This document shows, piece by piece, positions 2,747 through 56,689 of a stretch of 64,000 nucleotides of DNA; within the stretch, counting starts at the first letter, position 1, and each line of letters starts with the position of its first letter. The translations under genes and the position numbers were made by a program. Under the pieces are notes generated by a model. That model worked only from the letters and a program-made list of their open reading frames with translations, did no database searches and was not told the DNA's origin. This stretch comes from Dryococelus australis (Eukaryota > Arthropoda > Insecta > Phasmatodea > Phasmatidae): assembly GCA_029891345.1 (NCBI GenBank), contig CM057000.1, positions 140,414,163 through 140,478,162 on the forward strand, given 5' to 3'.

Positions 2747-3129
2747 CATACACTAAAGGAGAGGTGGACCACTTATCCGTCTTCTGCGCATGTACCCAAC
2801 ATTGACCTACCCCAAAGGAACACAACTGTCAGAGTCACGTGGTCAACAGCGATGAAAGGGTTCGTTTATGTCTTAATTTTTAAATGACAAGCACGATTAT
2901 ATAAATAAAATGCTTAAACCAATTCGAATTTAAACGAAATTCATTACAAATTGTTTAGAGAACGTACACATACATCTCAACGCATTCGTTTACAAATCAG
3001 TATTCTAACCTTAAATCCAAACCATGCCGTTTTCGCTAGACGTGTTGGCAGAAAAGCAGTTAAATGTTGGGACATGGAGATTGGTTTTGCGCAGCCAGCG
3101 AGATCGGTCTACCTCATCTTTAGTCTATG
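2747..3129. mobile_element. MITE family G, copy 1
   Basis: A 383-bp element. Left end CATACACTAAAGGAGAGGTG; right end, reverse complement, CATAGACTAAAGATGAGGTA. Exact 8-bp target duplication CTTACAAC at 2,739-2,746 and 3,130-3,137. It splits the N-terminus of the transposase relic. The reverse-oriented second copy is at 15,788-16,183. Confidence 0.9.
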
Positions 3130-3417
3130 CTTACAACTACCTGCGCTTTTTGCTGAACCGACGCCATCTTGGCGTAAACAAACTGCAGCTCTCCAGGCGG
3201 CAGTCGAGAGAAGTGGGAAAAATTTAGGCTGTAATTTGAACACCTACAGAACGTAGAAGAACGGGCACAACTGAGAAAAATTAATTTACCGATTTTTGCA
3301 ACACATCTCAAATCATGGCATTTCACTGTGGACATCCAGTATATATTAATAGGTATTATCTGTATTGACCAAAAACAAAATAAGCTGAAAATAATTTTGG
3401 TTAATTTTGTTTGTAGA

Positions 3418-3653
3418 GACCATTCACGGTAAAGTGAGCACTTATTAAGGACCTGCAAAAATTTTCCTTTCAGCGAATGTATATCTTCCCGCCACTCTTT
3501 AATATAAACATTGTCATGTAAGTATTAAATACAGTGTTTATATTTCACTAGTCTCAAAAATAAACGCCTAGCGCTGAAAAAAAAAAATTCATTAATGATT
3601 AATGCCTGATGGGAGAGCTTAAAAAAAGGGGCTCACTTTAACCGTGAATAGCC
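3418..3653. mobile_element. TA-A MITE, short form
   Basis: Ends are inverted repeats of the family terminus GGCTGTTCACGGTAAAGTGA (left GACCATTCACGGTAAAGTGA; right, reverse complement, GGCTATTCACGGTTAAAGTG). The interior is non-coding. A short TA-rich tract follows at 3,654-3,672. Confidence 0.75.
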
Positions 3654-8650: not shown

Positions 8651-9035
8651 TTCGACTCGTGTCCGGCTAGTATGTTTTAAGATACGTATATTGGAGGCCA
8701 CCAAAATAATATTTACAGTGTGAGTGGTAACTTTAAAGTACCATTAATTCCTCGTCTGGGATATGATGTCATTTCGAAGGTAAACATACTGGTGGAACGT
8801 TTAATGTTTCAGTAGAAAAAAAAACAGGAAGATTATAGCCTACACCTTTAGATATATCATGCAGCAGACAAATATCTAACCTATGAATGCGTAACAATAT
8901 AAAAATGTATATAAAATTAAATATAATGTTTCGAGACGTTTTACTCCATTCGGATCCATGTCTGCACGATTGCATAAATAACGCTCATGAACGTTATTTC
9001 TGGTCAGTACGCCACAGTACGAGACTCAGTGCATA

Positions 9036-9215
9036 TAGTCGATTCACAATAATTAGTTCCAACTTTTCTGAAGCCCCGCTAAAGTTCTACTTTCAATATA
9101 TTCCTCCGCCTCATGCTAACAAAGTTAACCGATGCTTAAAAAAAATAATAAACCGCTGGGACAGCCCCCCGCATTCATGCGCACTCAGTATAATCATATT
9201 ATGCATTTGAACTAT
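9036..9215. mobile_element. TA-H MITE, 3'-truncated
   Basis: Begins with a diverged end and the family block CCAACTTTTCTGAAGCC, then AAAGTTCTACTTTC and ATTCCTCCGCCTC. Only the left ~180 bp is present. It abuts the TA-A element that starts at 9,227. Confidence 0.6.
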
Positions 9216-9226
9216 TTATTTCTATG

Positions 9227-9864
9227 GGCTGTTCACGTTAAAGTGAGCACTTTCTAAAGCCATATAATTTGGAATAATAGTCAATAAATTTAGGCCATAG
9301 ACGTTAACGTCTGAGTGTGGTGGAATATAGACACTGTATTTATTACTTACGCGGCAATATTTATTTAAAAATGCGGTTAAATGTAAAAAAAAAAAGATTT
9401 TTTTTTGTAACATTTGAACTTCCGTCATTTTGATGCAATAAGTTTGCATAAGTGTGGATGCCATGGTCAGGTTGCGGAGTACTGAAGCCCTGCCTAATAT
9501 CTACTTATATATGCACGTTGTGTACTCTTCCGCCTTGCGTAAGATTAGCATTGCATCCTTTATTCATGCGTCAGTTAAGTGAAAGTCTGAAATTATTAGA
9601 AAAGTAAACCTGTAACAAATCTAGTTTTTACGATTCGATAAATTTAAAAAAAAATCAGGAAGTGAAAGAAATAATTTTGAATGATCATAACTTGTCACCT
9701 AACACTTTTTATTCGACGTAAGATACGGAACTACTTCCCTTGCATCGTTACCAACTTTACTGGGCGCATTTCATTCAGGACGCCCGTTAAAATATATGCA
9801 GGTTTGGAGAAGTGACGTTTTTCTAAGGTTGATTTCAAAAGTGCTCACTTTATCGTGAACAGCC
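9227..9864. mobile_element. chimeric TA-A element (short-form left, long-form right)
   Basis: Left end GGCTGTTCACGTTAAAGTGA, right end GTGCTCACTTTATCGTGAAC. The left ~250 bp match the short subfamily (as at 53,405-53,635: GACGTTAACGTCTGAGTGTG), whereas the right part matches the long subfamily (CACGTTGTGTACTCTTCCGC, ...GTTACCAACTTTACTGGGCG). The junction is near 9,470. Template switching or insertion of one subfamily into another could explain it. Confidence 0.7.
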
Positions 9865-29377: not shown

Positions 29378-29600
29378 TAGCGACCTGCGAAATTCGCGTT
29401 ATTTTTCAGACTAAACTCCGGGGTGCTAGTGCTACTGACGGCCCTCAGTGGCTGAGGAGAATATCTGCGGCATGGCGTGAAACACTATTTTAACCAATTG
29501 TAACAGTTCAACGCCAGAGTGAACAATCGCCTGTAAGACTGTCACACTGGCCTACGACCTCGTACAGAAGCCATTATCCAACGAAATCACGAGTTGTGTT
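29378..29600. mobile_element. hM-K-like MITE fragment
   Basis: The left end TTAGCGACCTGCGAAATTCG fits hM-K (TAGAGACCTGCAAAATTCGC). The rest diverges strongly and no matching right end was seen. Confidence 0.35.
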
Positions 29601-29614
29601 CAGAAACTAACAGT

Positions 29615-29907
29615 TAGCGATAGGAATTTTTCGCGAGTTCATTTTTGGACGAGATAGACGTCAAACACGTGTACGCTAAAATTGACTTTGCAGTTGTATT
29701 GCAGTTTATTAGACACGCCCTGAACGACTCTGAGCCAATAACAGACTCGCAAGGAAAGAAGTAGCGAGTGCCATACTGCCAGGTGTGAAGTAACACTGGC
29801 TACTCTATGGGGCAGCAGCCAATGAACAAACATCTGGGCTCGAGTATACACGTGACTGTGGAGTCTATCCTACAGGTCATTGAACTCGCGAATTTTTTCC
29901 ATCCCTA
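29615..29907. mobile_element. hM-B MITE
   Basis: 293 bp. Left TAGCGATAGGAATTTTTCGC; right, reverse complement, TAGGGATGGAAAAAATTCGC. Flanks CTAACAGT and CTAATAGG agree at 6 of 8 positions, consistent with an aged 8-bp duplication. Confidence 0.82.
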
Positions 29908-29990
29908 CTAATAGGGCAATGACGTCTAGCTTATCCAGAAATAATAACGCGAATTATGCAGGTATTTATTAATGTTTAATGCCAGTATAC

Positions 29991-33797: not shown

Positions 33798-34071
33798 AAG
33801 AGACCCCGAGAAATTCGCGACTGCAACGACCTTTAGGCTAGACTTCACAGTCTTGTATACTCTCATACGGATATCAACTGTTTGTTGGTTGATTGTTGTG
33901 GTAGTAAAATTCGGTGGTTGGGCGCACAATTTATTGCATGTTTTTTATTGGCTCATTTATCTCCAACGGGTGTCAAACAACGCGTCGACAAATTACAAAA
34001 GTAACATGAACGTACAAGTGTGTGAATTCCAACTTGTCTAGAAATGAACCCGCGAAATTCTCGGATCTTCA
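33798..34071. mobile_element. hM-D MITE
   Basis: 274 bp. Left AAGAGACCCCGAGAAATTCG; right, reverse complement, TGAAGATCCGAGAATTTCGC. Flanks TACATAAC and TACAAAAC differ at one of 8 positions. Confidence 0.85.
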
Positions 34072-34079
34072 TACAAAAC

Positions 34080-34376
34080 TAGGGAAACCCACATTTCGCG
34101 ATAAGATTTCACGACCAACCAGTTGTATTTCATAATACTTTAGCTCAGAGCCACTTTTGTGTTTGGGTTATCTAGGTTCTATGCACCTTAGGTGCCTGCC
34201 CGCGAATAAGAGACGTACAGTATCAGAGCAACTTAATTCTGATTGGCCGGTAAACTAAGAGAATGCCTTCTCACAGACACACGCCGCCAATAAGCAATAG
34301 GGAACTTTTGGTACGCTCGTAGGGTATCGAAACCTAGCATGCGCGGAAATCTTTTCGCGAAATTCGGGTATCCCTA
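34080..34376. mobile_element. hM-C MITE abutting hM-D
   Basis: 297 bp. Left TAGGGAAACCCACATTTCGC; right, reverse complement, TAGGGATACCCGAATTTCGC. Its left flank is TACAAAAC, the right duplication of the neighbouring hM-D, so it probably inserted into that octamer. Only 4 bp separate its right end from the next element. Confidence 0.85.
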
Positions 34377-34380
34377 CACA

Positions 34381-35103: not shown

Positions 35104-35167
35104 ATGCAGCAGGGCAAGTCGTTCCTCATCAGGGACCTGCTGGGCGACGTCCTTGGAGAGCCTGCAG
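35104..35167 (+). CDS. Bar-like homeobox gene, first coding exon
   Basis: Opens with ATG at 35,104 after a purine-rich 5' leader and encodes 21 codons plus one base. KSFLIRDLLGDVL is an eh1-type motif (F-x-I-x-x-L/I-L), which in Bar, NK and related homeodomain proteins binds the co-repressor Groucho/TLE, so the product is probably a nuclear repressor. The exon ends at CAG|GTGAGA (donor GT at 35,168) in phase 1. The homeodomain exon 21 kb downstream starts in phase 1 on the same strand, and the joined codon reads Glu. This phase match, the eh1 motif and the CpG promoter argue that the two exons form one gene. An additional intervening exon cannot be excluded. Confidence 0.75.
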
Positions 35168-35237
35168 GTGAGAACACAACACGGCAAGGACATGCCATCC
35201 ATGCAGATATTTCTATTTCTTCCGGAATATCTGTAGT

Positions 35238-35319
35238 TAGAGTCGCGATTATTTCGCGGATTGATGTGGCAGCACGTTAGACTTGTAAATCCTCTACACA
35301 CTCGAGAAGCTATCGTTTG
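35238..35319. mobile_element. hM-J MITE, left part, interrupted by the ladder
   Basis: TTAGAGTCGCGATTATTTCG opens it; the text then follows the reverse complement of the hM-J at 53,113-53,398 up to the internal words CACACTCGAGAA, ATCGTTTG and CTTATTGG, where the first of four further elements begins. The remainder of this hM-J was not found. It begins only 70 bp into the intron. Confidence 0.8.
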
Positions 35320-35327
35320 CTTATTGG

Positions 35328-35600
35328 TAGAGACCCGAGAATTGCGTTGGTTCATTTCTAGACAAGCTGGAATTCACACACATGTACGTTCATGTTACGT
35401 TTGTAATTGGCCGACGTGTTGTTTGAAACCTGCTGGAGATAAATGAGCCAATAAAAAACATACACTAAATTGTGCGCCCAATCACCGCCTTTTACTGCCA
35501 CAACAATCAACTAATAAGCAGTTTACATCTGTATGAGATTATATAAGACTGTGAACTTTAGCCTACAGGTCATTGACCTCGCGATTTTCTCGGGTCTCTA
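35328..35600. mobile_element. hM-D MITE, ladder element 1
   Basis: 273 bp. Left TAGAGACCCGAGAATTGCGT; right, reverse complement, TAGAGACCCGAGAAAATCGC. Internal boxes AATTGGCC, GCCAATAAAA and CCCAATCACC. Confidence 0.92.
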
Positions 35601-35608
35601 CTTATTGG

Positions 35609-35839
35609 TAAAGACCTGAAAAATTCGCGAGTTCAATTACCTGCAGGCTAGACTCTAAAGTATTATGTATGAATAGGCCTATATCAACTACACATTGGTT
35701 GTCTGCTGTCACAGTTGAAAGCGACAATTGGACATGAGGTGTCAAACACTGTGTGAGTTAATTGCTTAACTTATATAAACGCTCTTGTTTTGAATTCTAG
35801 CTTGACATAAAATGAATCCGCGAATTCCTCAGGTCTCTA
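35609..35839. mobile_element. hM-D MITE, ladder element 2
   Basis: 231 bp. Left TAAAGACCTGAAAAATTCGC; right, reverse complement, TAGAGACCTGAGGAATTCGC. Opposite orientation to element 1, judged by the GGCTAGACTCT/AGCCTACAG side. Confidence 0.9.
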
Positions 35840-35847
35840 CTTATTGG

Positions 35848-36140
35848 TAGGGACAGGTGTTTTTCGCGAAAATATTTCAAGACCAGTTGTACTACAAAAT
35901 ACTTTTGATCATATTCACTTTCGTGATTGGATGATTTAAAATGTCACGTGCCTCAAGTGTCTGTCCGCGAATCATGGATAATCAGTATCGGAATACGTTG
36001 TTACGATTGGCCCAGTCAAATAGGAGCATGTCTTCTCTCATGGACACGCTTCCAATAGCCAAAGGAAGTTGTAGTTGTGGACGTAGGATATTGAAGTCTA
36101 GCATGGTCATAAATATTTTTGCGAAAAACACCTGCCCCTA
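35848..36140. mobile_element. hM-C MITE, ladder element 3
   Basis: 293 bp. Left TAGGGACAGGTGTTTTTCGC; right, reverse complement, TAGGGGCAGGTGTTTTTCGC. The two ends match each other better (AGGTGTTTTT) than the family consensus, marking a subfamily. Flanked by exact CTTATTGG. Confidence 0.92.
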
Positions 36141-36148
36141 CTTATTGG

Positions 36149-36320
36149 TAGGAAAACGTGAATTTCGCGAAAATATTTCCGCACATGCTAATCTCAATAC
36201 CCCACGAGAGTGCCAACAGTTCCCTATTGCTTATTGGCGGCGTGTGTCTGTGGGTCAAATATACATGCGTTTGAAGTCTAGCTTGTCTCGGAATGAATTT
36301 GCGAAATTTCCGGGTCTCTG
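36149..36320. mobile_element. hM-C/hM-D chimera, ladder element 4
   Basis: Left TAGGAAAACGTGAATTTCGC and the next ~100 bp follow hM-C; after GTGTGTCTGTGG (about 36,253) the text switches to the right arm of hM-D (AAGTCTAGCTTGTCTCGGAA, ending CCGGGTCTCTG). No CTTATTGG follows. Deletion across two neighbouring elements would give this structure. Confidence 0.75.
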
Positions 36321-36788
36321 TCGATAATTTTAAAAATTTCTGAGACCCGCTCTAATAGGTCGGTTTACGATTAGAGACGTGTAAGTATTGAAATGAAAGA
36401 AGGCATTCTTACGGAATGGTTCATGGTTGTCGCGTTTCGTGTCGTGTAGGTAGATACTTGACGTGTGGATGTGTACAAAATGGCGACATTTTATTTCCTG
36501 CTTTTCACATAAGGCATTCAGCCAATAGAATTAAAGGAGAAAAGAAGAATGTGAAGTAATATATATTGTATTTATTCGAATACAGCGGATGTTTAAAAAC
36601 CGTATGCACAGCCTACAGGGGCGTCTAGAGGACAATGAAATAATTACGCAAGTCCCAGTAAACAAAGGTCTGGAAACCAGTGTCATTGCATTATTACAAC
36701 ATTGCTCATTCCTTGTGCTCCAGTTAACGGCCCTCGCGTTGAATGTCAACAGTGATGTGCACTCGTAGCAGCATTCGAAGCAGTTGCC

Positions 36789-53112: not shown

Positions 53113-53398
53113 TAGAGCCCCGAGTATTTCGCGAATTCATTCGGAGGCGAAGTAGACTTCAACCACTTGTTATTTTCATCTACTGTTGTGATTGGACGAC
53201 AGTTCTTTGTACACGCCCCGTTTAACTGTGAGCCAGTAATAAGCAGGAAGCAGTAGGGTCAGTGAGTGTTTAACAGTCCTGTACAGAGGCCTCACTTGAT
53301 CGCAGCAACCAATAAGCAAACGATAAATTCTCGAGTGTGTGGAGGGCTGTCCAGCCTAGCTTGCTGCCAACTCAATCCGCGAAATACTCGTAGCTCTA
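53113..53398. mobile_element. hM-J MITE, complete
   Basis: 286 bp. Left TAGAGCCCCGAGTATTTCGC; right, reverse complement, TAGAGCTACGAGTATTTCGC. Flanks GTTATATG and GTTATAGG differ at one of 8 positions. Interior has GTGATTGGACG and CAACCAATAAGCAAACG; the reverse complement of the latter contains the CTTATTGG that became the ladder target at 35,320. Confidence 0.9.
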
Positions 53399-55489: not shown

Positions 55490-56617
<1,128 letters not shown>

Positions 56618-56689
56618 TGAGCAGCGATGTGTAGACACCTGAAGAACTTGCGGCCGGGCCCCCTTCCCCAGTCAAGCTAGGATCCAAAA

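Follow-up and report, generated by a model that had tools for sequence, protein, structure and literature searches.

A ladder of hAT-type MITEs around one repeated octamer in Dryococelus australis, probably built by serial insertion

How can one and the same octamer come to stand between successive, different transposable elements? The question is raised by a 64-kb piece of the 3.4-Gb genome of Dryococelus australis (hereafter the window), in which CTTATTGG occurs four times in close succession, each time directly 5' of a hAT-type MITE (three complete, one truncated; Table 1). The run sits within an older MITE, hM-J, which is interrupted at its own word CTTATTGG. The ladder is real: all four octamer positions given in the original prediction, which was made from the letters alone, are exact. 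Counting both strands, CTTATTGG is found 10 times in the window against 2.6 expected, and this count was reached in 0 of 100 shuffles. We read the locus as a serial-insertion ladder produced by target preference and target regeneration, with little need for special recognition of termini, and give this reading a probability of about 85%.

Table 1 Features of the ladder and of related elements, in positions of the window.
Feature	Position	Strand	Remark
D element, TACAAAAC, hM-C element (second, weaker pair)	33800..34376	+	
Candidate left target duplication of hM-J, TCTGTAGT	35230..35237	.	directly 5' of the hM-J tip
hM-J, left part, to the octamer	35238..35319	+	
Octamer 1, CTTATTGG	35320..35327	+	hM-J position 83
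Rung E1, hM-D, 273 nt	35328..35600	-	orientation opposite to that of the copy at 33799-34075
Octamer 2, CTTATTGG	35601..35608	+	one element tip on each side
Rung E2, D-related, 231 nt	35609..35839	+	family separate from E1
Octamer 3, CTTATTGG	35840..35847	+	
Rung E3, hM-C, 293 nt	35848..36140	+	TIRs 28/30
Octamer 4, CTTATTGG	36141..36148	+	
Rung E4, inverted hM-C cut off after 104 nt, remainder missing	36149..36252	-	
Right terminus, most likely of the host hM-J	36256..36320	+	joined to E4 at about 36253
Candidate right target duplication of hM-J, TCGATAAT	36321..36328	.	
hM-J copy serving as empty-site reference	53113..53398	-	CTTATTGG uninterrupted at 53309-53316

Every rung starts with TA followed by three to four purines, and the complete rungs finish with the complement. 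Their terminal inverted repeats (TIRs) agree at 21/30 positions in E1, 24/30 in E2 and 28/30 in E3. Three of the four octamers are flanked by tips on both sides (TCTCTA or CCCCTA, octamer, TARRRA), and a simple tip pattern run over the window returned those three junctions and no other; unlike these, the first octamer is preceded by hM-J sequence. A further CTTATTGG at 36230 is a word internal to hM-C and marks no junction. Identity among E1, E2 and E3 is 58-67% in the same orientation and 58-68% in any orientation, and E4 is 67-70% identical to the other rungs. At just 58-70% identity the rungs are not copies of each other, which speaks against local duplication.

The assignment of the rungs departs in part from what had been predicted, namely two hM-D elements and one hM-C between the octamers, followed by a hM-C/D chimera. 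E1 is indeed hM-D (87% complementarity with 33805-34068, across 264 nt) and E3 is hM-C. E2 is only 67-68% identical to E1 whichever orientation is taken, and therefore belongs to a related family instead of repeating that hM-D element. The supposed chimera is instead a hM-C end fused at about 36253 to a right terminus: 59 nt of E4 show 92% complementarity with the hM-C copy found at 34272-34330, and two other loci match as far as query position 1014-1015, corresponding to 36251-36252.

The host is best seen at its left side, where positions 35238-35328 match the hM-J copy at 53398-53113 with 81% identity over 91 nt. That undisturbed copy has the target duplication GTTATATG/GTTATAGG, TIRs agreeing at 14/16 positions and a single, uninterrupted CTTATTGG at its position 83, in the context TTTG-CTTATTGG-TTGCTGC, bearing out the claim that the octamer is an internal hM-J word. 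At the other side, the final ~64 nt up to 36320 match the hM-J end with 78% identity over 63 nt (E 3e-9). Scores for this right terminus are close (hM-B 61, without the last 11 nt; hM-J 57, to the last-but-one base; E1 51), so that the family call is not firm; hM-J's own end is the likely, though not certain, identification. The simplest history would be a deletion that ran from within E4, across the fifth octamer, and through the middle of hM-J. The two candidate target duplications of hM-J are alike, by eye, at 5/8 letters, a weak match. Overall, the inner octamers equal the outer ones, the rungs are unrelated and the uninterrupted host site is known; the fifth octamer, to the right of E4, is missing.

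The TIRs of hAT elements begin with YARNG. The tips TAGAG, TAGGG and CAGGG fit this start, and the left tip of E2 is TAAAG. Exact 8-bp duplications, as in the hAT superfamily, flank many intact elements in the window, in a random sample and at loci fetched from elsewhere in the genome. Judged by these ends and target duplications, the rungs are probably non-autonomous hAT-superfamily elements. They fit MITEs in short, uniform length (mostly 231-300 nt), in TIRs and in high copy number, one 21-nt tip pattern alone giving 13,423 ends genome-wide against 0 in the control; non-coding status was judged by length alone. The Ac-type hAT duplication consensus is nTnnnnAn. In the junction octamers, T at position 2 has a frequency of 0.59-0.62 and A at position 7 of 0.45-0.59, compared with 0.41 and 0.39 in single insertions. 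AT at positions 4-5 outweighs both as a signal, and the Buster-type consensus nnnTAnnn, with TA at these positions, does not fit.

A second junction of the same kind had been predicted at 33798-34376 and is weaker than the first. The octamers around its D element, TACATAAC and TACAAAAC, are alike at 7/8 letters, but the next spacer, CACA (34377-34380), is just 4 nt long. The window contains further MITE sequence, including a nested pair at 29378-29968, where an element at about 29615-29908, flanked by octamers of about CTAACAGT and CTAATAGG, lies within another hM element (duplication TTAATGGT/TTAATGTT). In total, hM sequence makes up 6,641 of 64,000 nt here and 1,865 of 200,000 nt in the random sample, a roughly 11-fold excess that is favoured by an element library drawn partly from the window. 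We also observed a possible short first exon at 35104-35167 (MQQGKSFLIRDLLGDVLGEPAG, donor GTGAGA; by eye, with no Pfam match) and a homeodomain stretch at 56243-56620 (Pfam PF00046, E 5e-19). If the two belong to one BarH-like gene, the ladder lies about 70 bp into its first intron, adjoining a GC-rich stretch.

In the history that we propose, hM-J would have inserted first, bringing with it CTTATTGG, a good match to the palindromic target preference of these elements. An element would then have inserted at CTTATTGG within hM-J and duplicated the octamer; both duplicates would again suit insertion, each having gained the TA of a tip on one side. Three more insertions, of different families, would have followed, and a later deletion would have cost the ladder the fifth octamer, along with the right-hand portion of the fourth rung and some of hM-J. 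The agent would presumably have been a hAT transposase. The driving force would lie in target-sequence preference and in a target renewed at every insertion, in insertion-rich neighbourhoods; apart from a mild native preference for TA flanking the octamer, this history calls for no particular recognition of termini already in place.

Genome-wide, the spacing between facing tips carries a clear signal. A search for GGTCTCTA and TAGAGACC separated by 0-30 bases returned 221 places, compared with 61 for the reversed control, and the gap was exactly 8 in 32 of the first 50 of the 221 places. With a stricter tip pair, gap 8 gave 83 matches, reduced by hand to 59 distinct sites (control 0), and gaps 9-39 together gave 62 matches at 46 distinct sites (controls 0). 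Twelve of these 46 sites have a gap of 15, leaving 34 spread across the other 30 gaps, and gap 8 is enriched 52-fold (34-81) over its neighbours other than gap 15. The predicted junction of element end, octamer and element start is thus far commoner than chance. An apparent peak at gap 4 is an artefact, produced by octamers starting with TCTAT that overlap the query word CTCTA.

A second favoured spacing is 15 bp (12/46 sites, P ~3e-9 against the other gaps; for example G000:C9:28245412, C10:32959799 and C17:162505026). Here the two octamers overlap by one base, i.e. the targets are 7 bp apart. One of the 12 sites counted, GTCTCTACTAATGAG, proves to be a gap-8 site with its tip repeated, leaving 11 clean sites. 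Excision footprints were considered as the source of this spacing and rejected, as the two octamers are, by eye, not copies of each other.

Because a target duplication has already been selected once as a target, some excess at gap 8 is expected. We estimated the preference for target octamers at 22.0-fold (14.5-39.7) over a random octamer, using 93 octamers from outside gap-8 junctions, one of them counted twice; a coarse class-based estimate was 22.9-fold, and smaller sets of single insertions gave 12- and 20-fold. Estimates of about 173-fold (by hand, from 32 junction octamers) and 85-fold were left unused because junction octamers have been selected twice. The palindromic target motif has AT as its central pair, positions 4-5, in 85% of the 61 octamers from outside gap-8 junctions and in 78% of the 59 junction octamers.

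The preference extends to the flank. Of the 13,423 ends, 2,077 (15.5%) have TA directly 5' of the octamer against a background of 8.3%, whereas the control dinucleotide AT precedes 1,136 (8.5%) against 9.1%, both backgrounds being taken from the random 200-kb sample. CTA, the triplet expected from most element tips, accounts for 651 of the 2,077; the other three TA triplets number 1,426 against 945 expected (375+207+363), a native preference of 1.51-fold, part of which may stem from decayed tips. A small hand sample had TA in 8/76 flanks, near background, and an excess of T at the third base outside the octamer (36/76 flanks) was unconfirmed in other flanks (11/32). Multiplying the octamer preference by the TA factor of 1.51 predicts a 33-35-fold enrichment at gap 8. 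The observed 52-fold is 1.5-1.6 times this value, which is within error, although an extra factor of up to about 2-3 may operate at gap 8, as the observed value exceeds the predicted one. The suggestion that the junction of terminus and octamer is in itself favoured for insertion is mostly unsupported; what remains of it is that native sites prefer TA just outside the octamer by about 1.5-fold and that tips supply TA.

hM-J offers an internal control, because its CTTATTGG has no element tip alongside. The empty site, CGTTTGCTTATTGGTTGCTG, has 1,682 matches genome-wide, and the occupied site, which runs into an element tip, has 54, the window's own included. Three of the 54 lie exactly 90 bp apart on one contig (G000:C13:58226848-58227046), apparently in a tandem repeat, and were dropped. 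With 51 occupied and 1,682 empty sites, occupancy is 2.9% (2.3-3.9) at a site that was itself selected as a known target. The empty and occupied patterns are unequal in strictness, and an assumed twofold undercount of empty sites with 75% detection of occupied ones lowers the figure to 2.0%. Another CTA tip abuts 3.0-3.6% of ends, and half of this figure, 1.5-1.8%, is the rehit rate per target duplication, a measure that misses tips without a CTA end. The ratio of rehit rate to hM-J site occupancy is 0.5-0.6, in a comparison between families of different ages. Terminus-flanked duplications are hit no more often than the terminus-free CTTATTGG, contrary to the idea that an octamer beside a terminus is hit preferentially.

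If the genome is assumed to hold on the order of 100,000 elements, judging by the 7 stretches found in 200 kb, a uniform rehit rate of 1.5-1.8% leads very roughly to 3,000-3,600 runs of two rungs, 135-194 of three and 8-14 of four. A four-rung ladder is rare, not exceptional, at this rate. Runs of at least three rungs look commoner than a uniform rate predicts. At least four rungs were seen at three loci, the window, L044 and L037, the latter two of which came from a search with the four-rung block as query.

These figures bear on two readings in which the resident tip does more than our preferred history allows. The first, which we regard as doubtful, is that tips, ending in TA, rebuild the preferred target, that ladders outpace octamer preference alone, perhaps through steering by a bound tip, and that the 15-bp spacing reflects a capture complex. 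If true, TA-octamer sites left by an insertion would be slightly better targets than before, and the spacing would show the placement of the target-capture complex next to a duplication already present. The second, somewhat less probable still, holds that resident termini attract insertion, tip-bound transposase steering new copies into the target duplication in a positive feedback. The gap-8 enrichment above prediction, the TA flank excess at native targets and the several loci with 3-5 rungs point in this direction, and insertions 9-39 bp from another hM end seem, on a rough estimate, far denser than the genome average. Against it, the residual enrichment is only 1.5-1.6-fold with overlapping errors, and the terminus-free site in hM-J is occupied more often (~2.9%) than each terminus-flanked duplication is rehit.

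Could the block instead be a composite, moved or duplicated as one unit, as a whole or as pairs of rungs? Pairs resembling E1-E2 and E2-E3 do occur at many loci. In the genome search, no other match to the whole block was found among the 40 scored of 15,292 first-look candidates; within this set the next best locus after the window covered 550 of 1,083 nt, and beyond the window only rung pairs or smaller pieces were recovered. The loci that match the block mostly have octamers different from CTTATTGG. Three elements are surrounded by GTGATTAC x4 at L026 and by CCGATAAG x4 at L036, while L044 has CTTATTGG x4, its fourth element apparently ending before CTGATAGG. Two elements are surrounded by ACTATAGG x3 at L010 and by TCAATGAC x3 at L024, and at these two loci the middle octamer matches the intact local outer ones. 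A moved composite would retain its inner octamer; since inner octamers vary by locus, we reject the composite as highly improbable. Together with the low identity between rungs, the other ladders, each with its own octamers equal or nearly so, speak against a duplicated segment, and they lend good support to the predicted repeated insertion into a duplicated target.

The longest ladder seen, at positions 1-1520 of L037, has at least four rungs and the start of a fifth, and its octamer CTTATCAG decays to CGTGTCAG, CATATCAG and TTTATCAA; its second rung is a hM-J copy. The loci above were chosen by likeness to a four-rung query and thus yield no frequencies. In the random sample (20 stretches of 10 kb, 200 kb in all), 7 stretches match hM elements and two of the 7 form a ladder, the two-rung L067 (6088-6677), with GCTATAAG x3 and a decayed tip on the second element.

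Middle and outer octamers are alike at six or more of 8 letters in 51/124 comparisons, compared with 2.7% in shuffled pairs. The annotator behind these comparisons was permissive, and many of them score low partly because chance pairs and the locus L062 were retained. L062 has regular, near-identical octamers, GTCGTATA/GTCGTGTA, at about 9010-9800, in what looks to be an ~88-bp tandem repeat with no relation to the ladder. Without it the likeness is 43/110 against 3.2% in shuffled pairs, made up of 35/61 in the picked loci and 8/49 in the window and random sample, where the 8 come from the window ladder and L067.

Chance resemblance or an assembly artefact is just as improbable as a composite: the shortness of octamers and the degeneracy of the target motif speak for it, but the gap-8 peak is sharp with zero control matches, and ladders lie on several contigs and in the random sample. 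Circles joined tip to tip through a spacer as long as the duplication, or rolling replication, either of which would give tandem copies, have the least chance of all. The part of PMC9587614 used here describes IS3 and IS256 circles with abutted tips and spacers of about target-duplication length, but these routes would yield repeats of one element; the rungs are of mixed family and orientation, with inner octamers equal to the outer ones, and we reject circles, and also slippage, because the rungs are so heterogeneous.

Ladders built by serial insertion preserve, base for base, a natural history of elements returning to one site, come with an internal control, and permit target preference and attraction by resident elements to be measured by sequence alone. 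They also help to account for the formation of MITE clusters. For annotation they carry a warning, in that abutting MITEs with a common octamer are separate insertions and not one composite family.

A case of two insertions at one 8-bp target is the singed-weak allele of Drosophila, a double insertion of P elements of one system. These are two copies from one superfamily, unlike the mixed-family ladder. The following comparisons draw on excerpts of the cited papers. The Mar element of Drosophila willistoni is, like the rungs, a short hAT MITE with hAT-type terminal repeats and 8-bp duplications, and its Buster duplication consensus, nnnTAnnn, contrasts with the central AT (positions 4-5) of the octamers here; neither 'tandem' nor 'nested' appears in the main text of that paper as excerpted (PMC3517528). 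In D. melanogaster, the TIR and LTR families studied have palindromic target motifs that extend past the duplication, with a 14-bp motif for hobo (PMC3276498). The TIR elements among them share with the ladder a palindromic preference that reaches the flanks, and hATx-6 shares a flank bias (PMC8721813), each with a different consensus. The excerpts of these two papers do not describe re-insertion into a duplication, and those of PMC1562414 and PMC9674265 contain no case of it. MITEs also occur in arrays in the coral CMITE family, where the tandem copies are highly similar, have similar spacers and are ascribed to replication slippage (PMC2872659), in contrast to the different families and exact target-duplication spacer of the ladder. 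In carrot, DcSto MITEs cluster, insert into each other and show independent insertions at the same position, as in the ladder, but their target duplications are TA or TTA and form no octamer run (PMC3695323). Within the mainly open-access literature, as excerpted here, runs of at least three different hAT MITEs with one common octamer are unreported. Another parallel is provided by Dada-U1A_DR and Dada-U1B_DR of zebrafish, two families in tandem with one copy of the target duplication between them (PMC3706591). As in the ladder, different DNA transposon families share one target with a single duplication copy in between. Unlike the rungs, Dada elements go into fixed sites within small RNA genes and leave duplications of 6-7 bp, and the inverted repeats of Dada-U1 are sub-terminal only (PMC3706591). 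The ladder MITEs carry TIRs, their octamers vary by locus and their runs reach at least three rungs.
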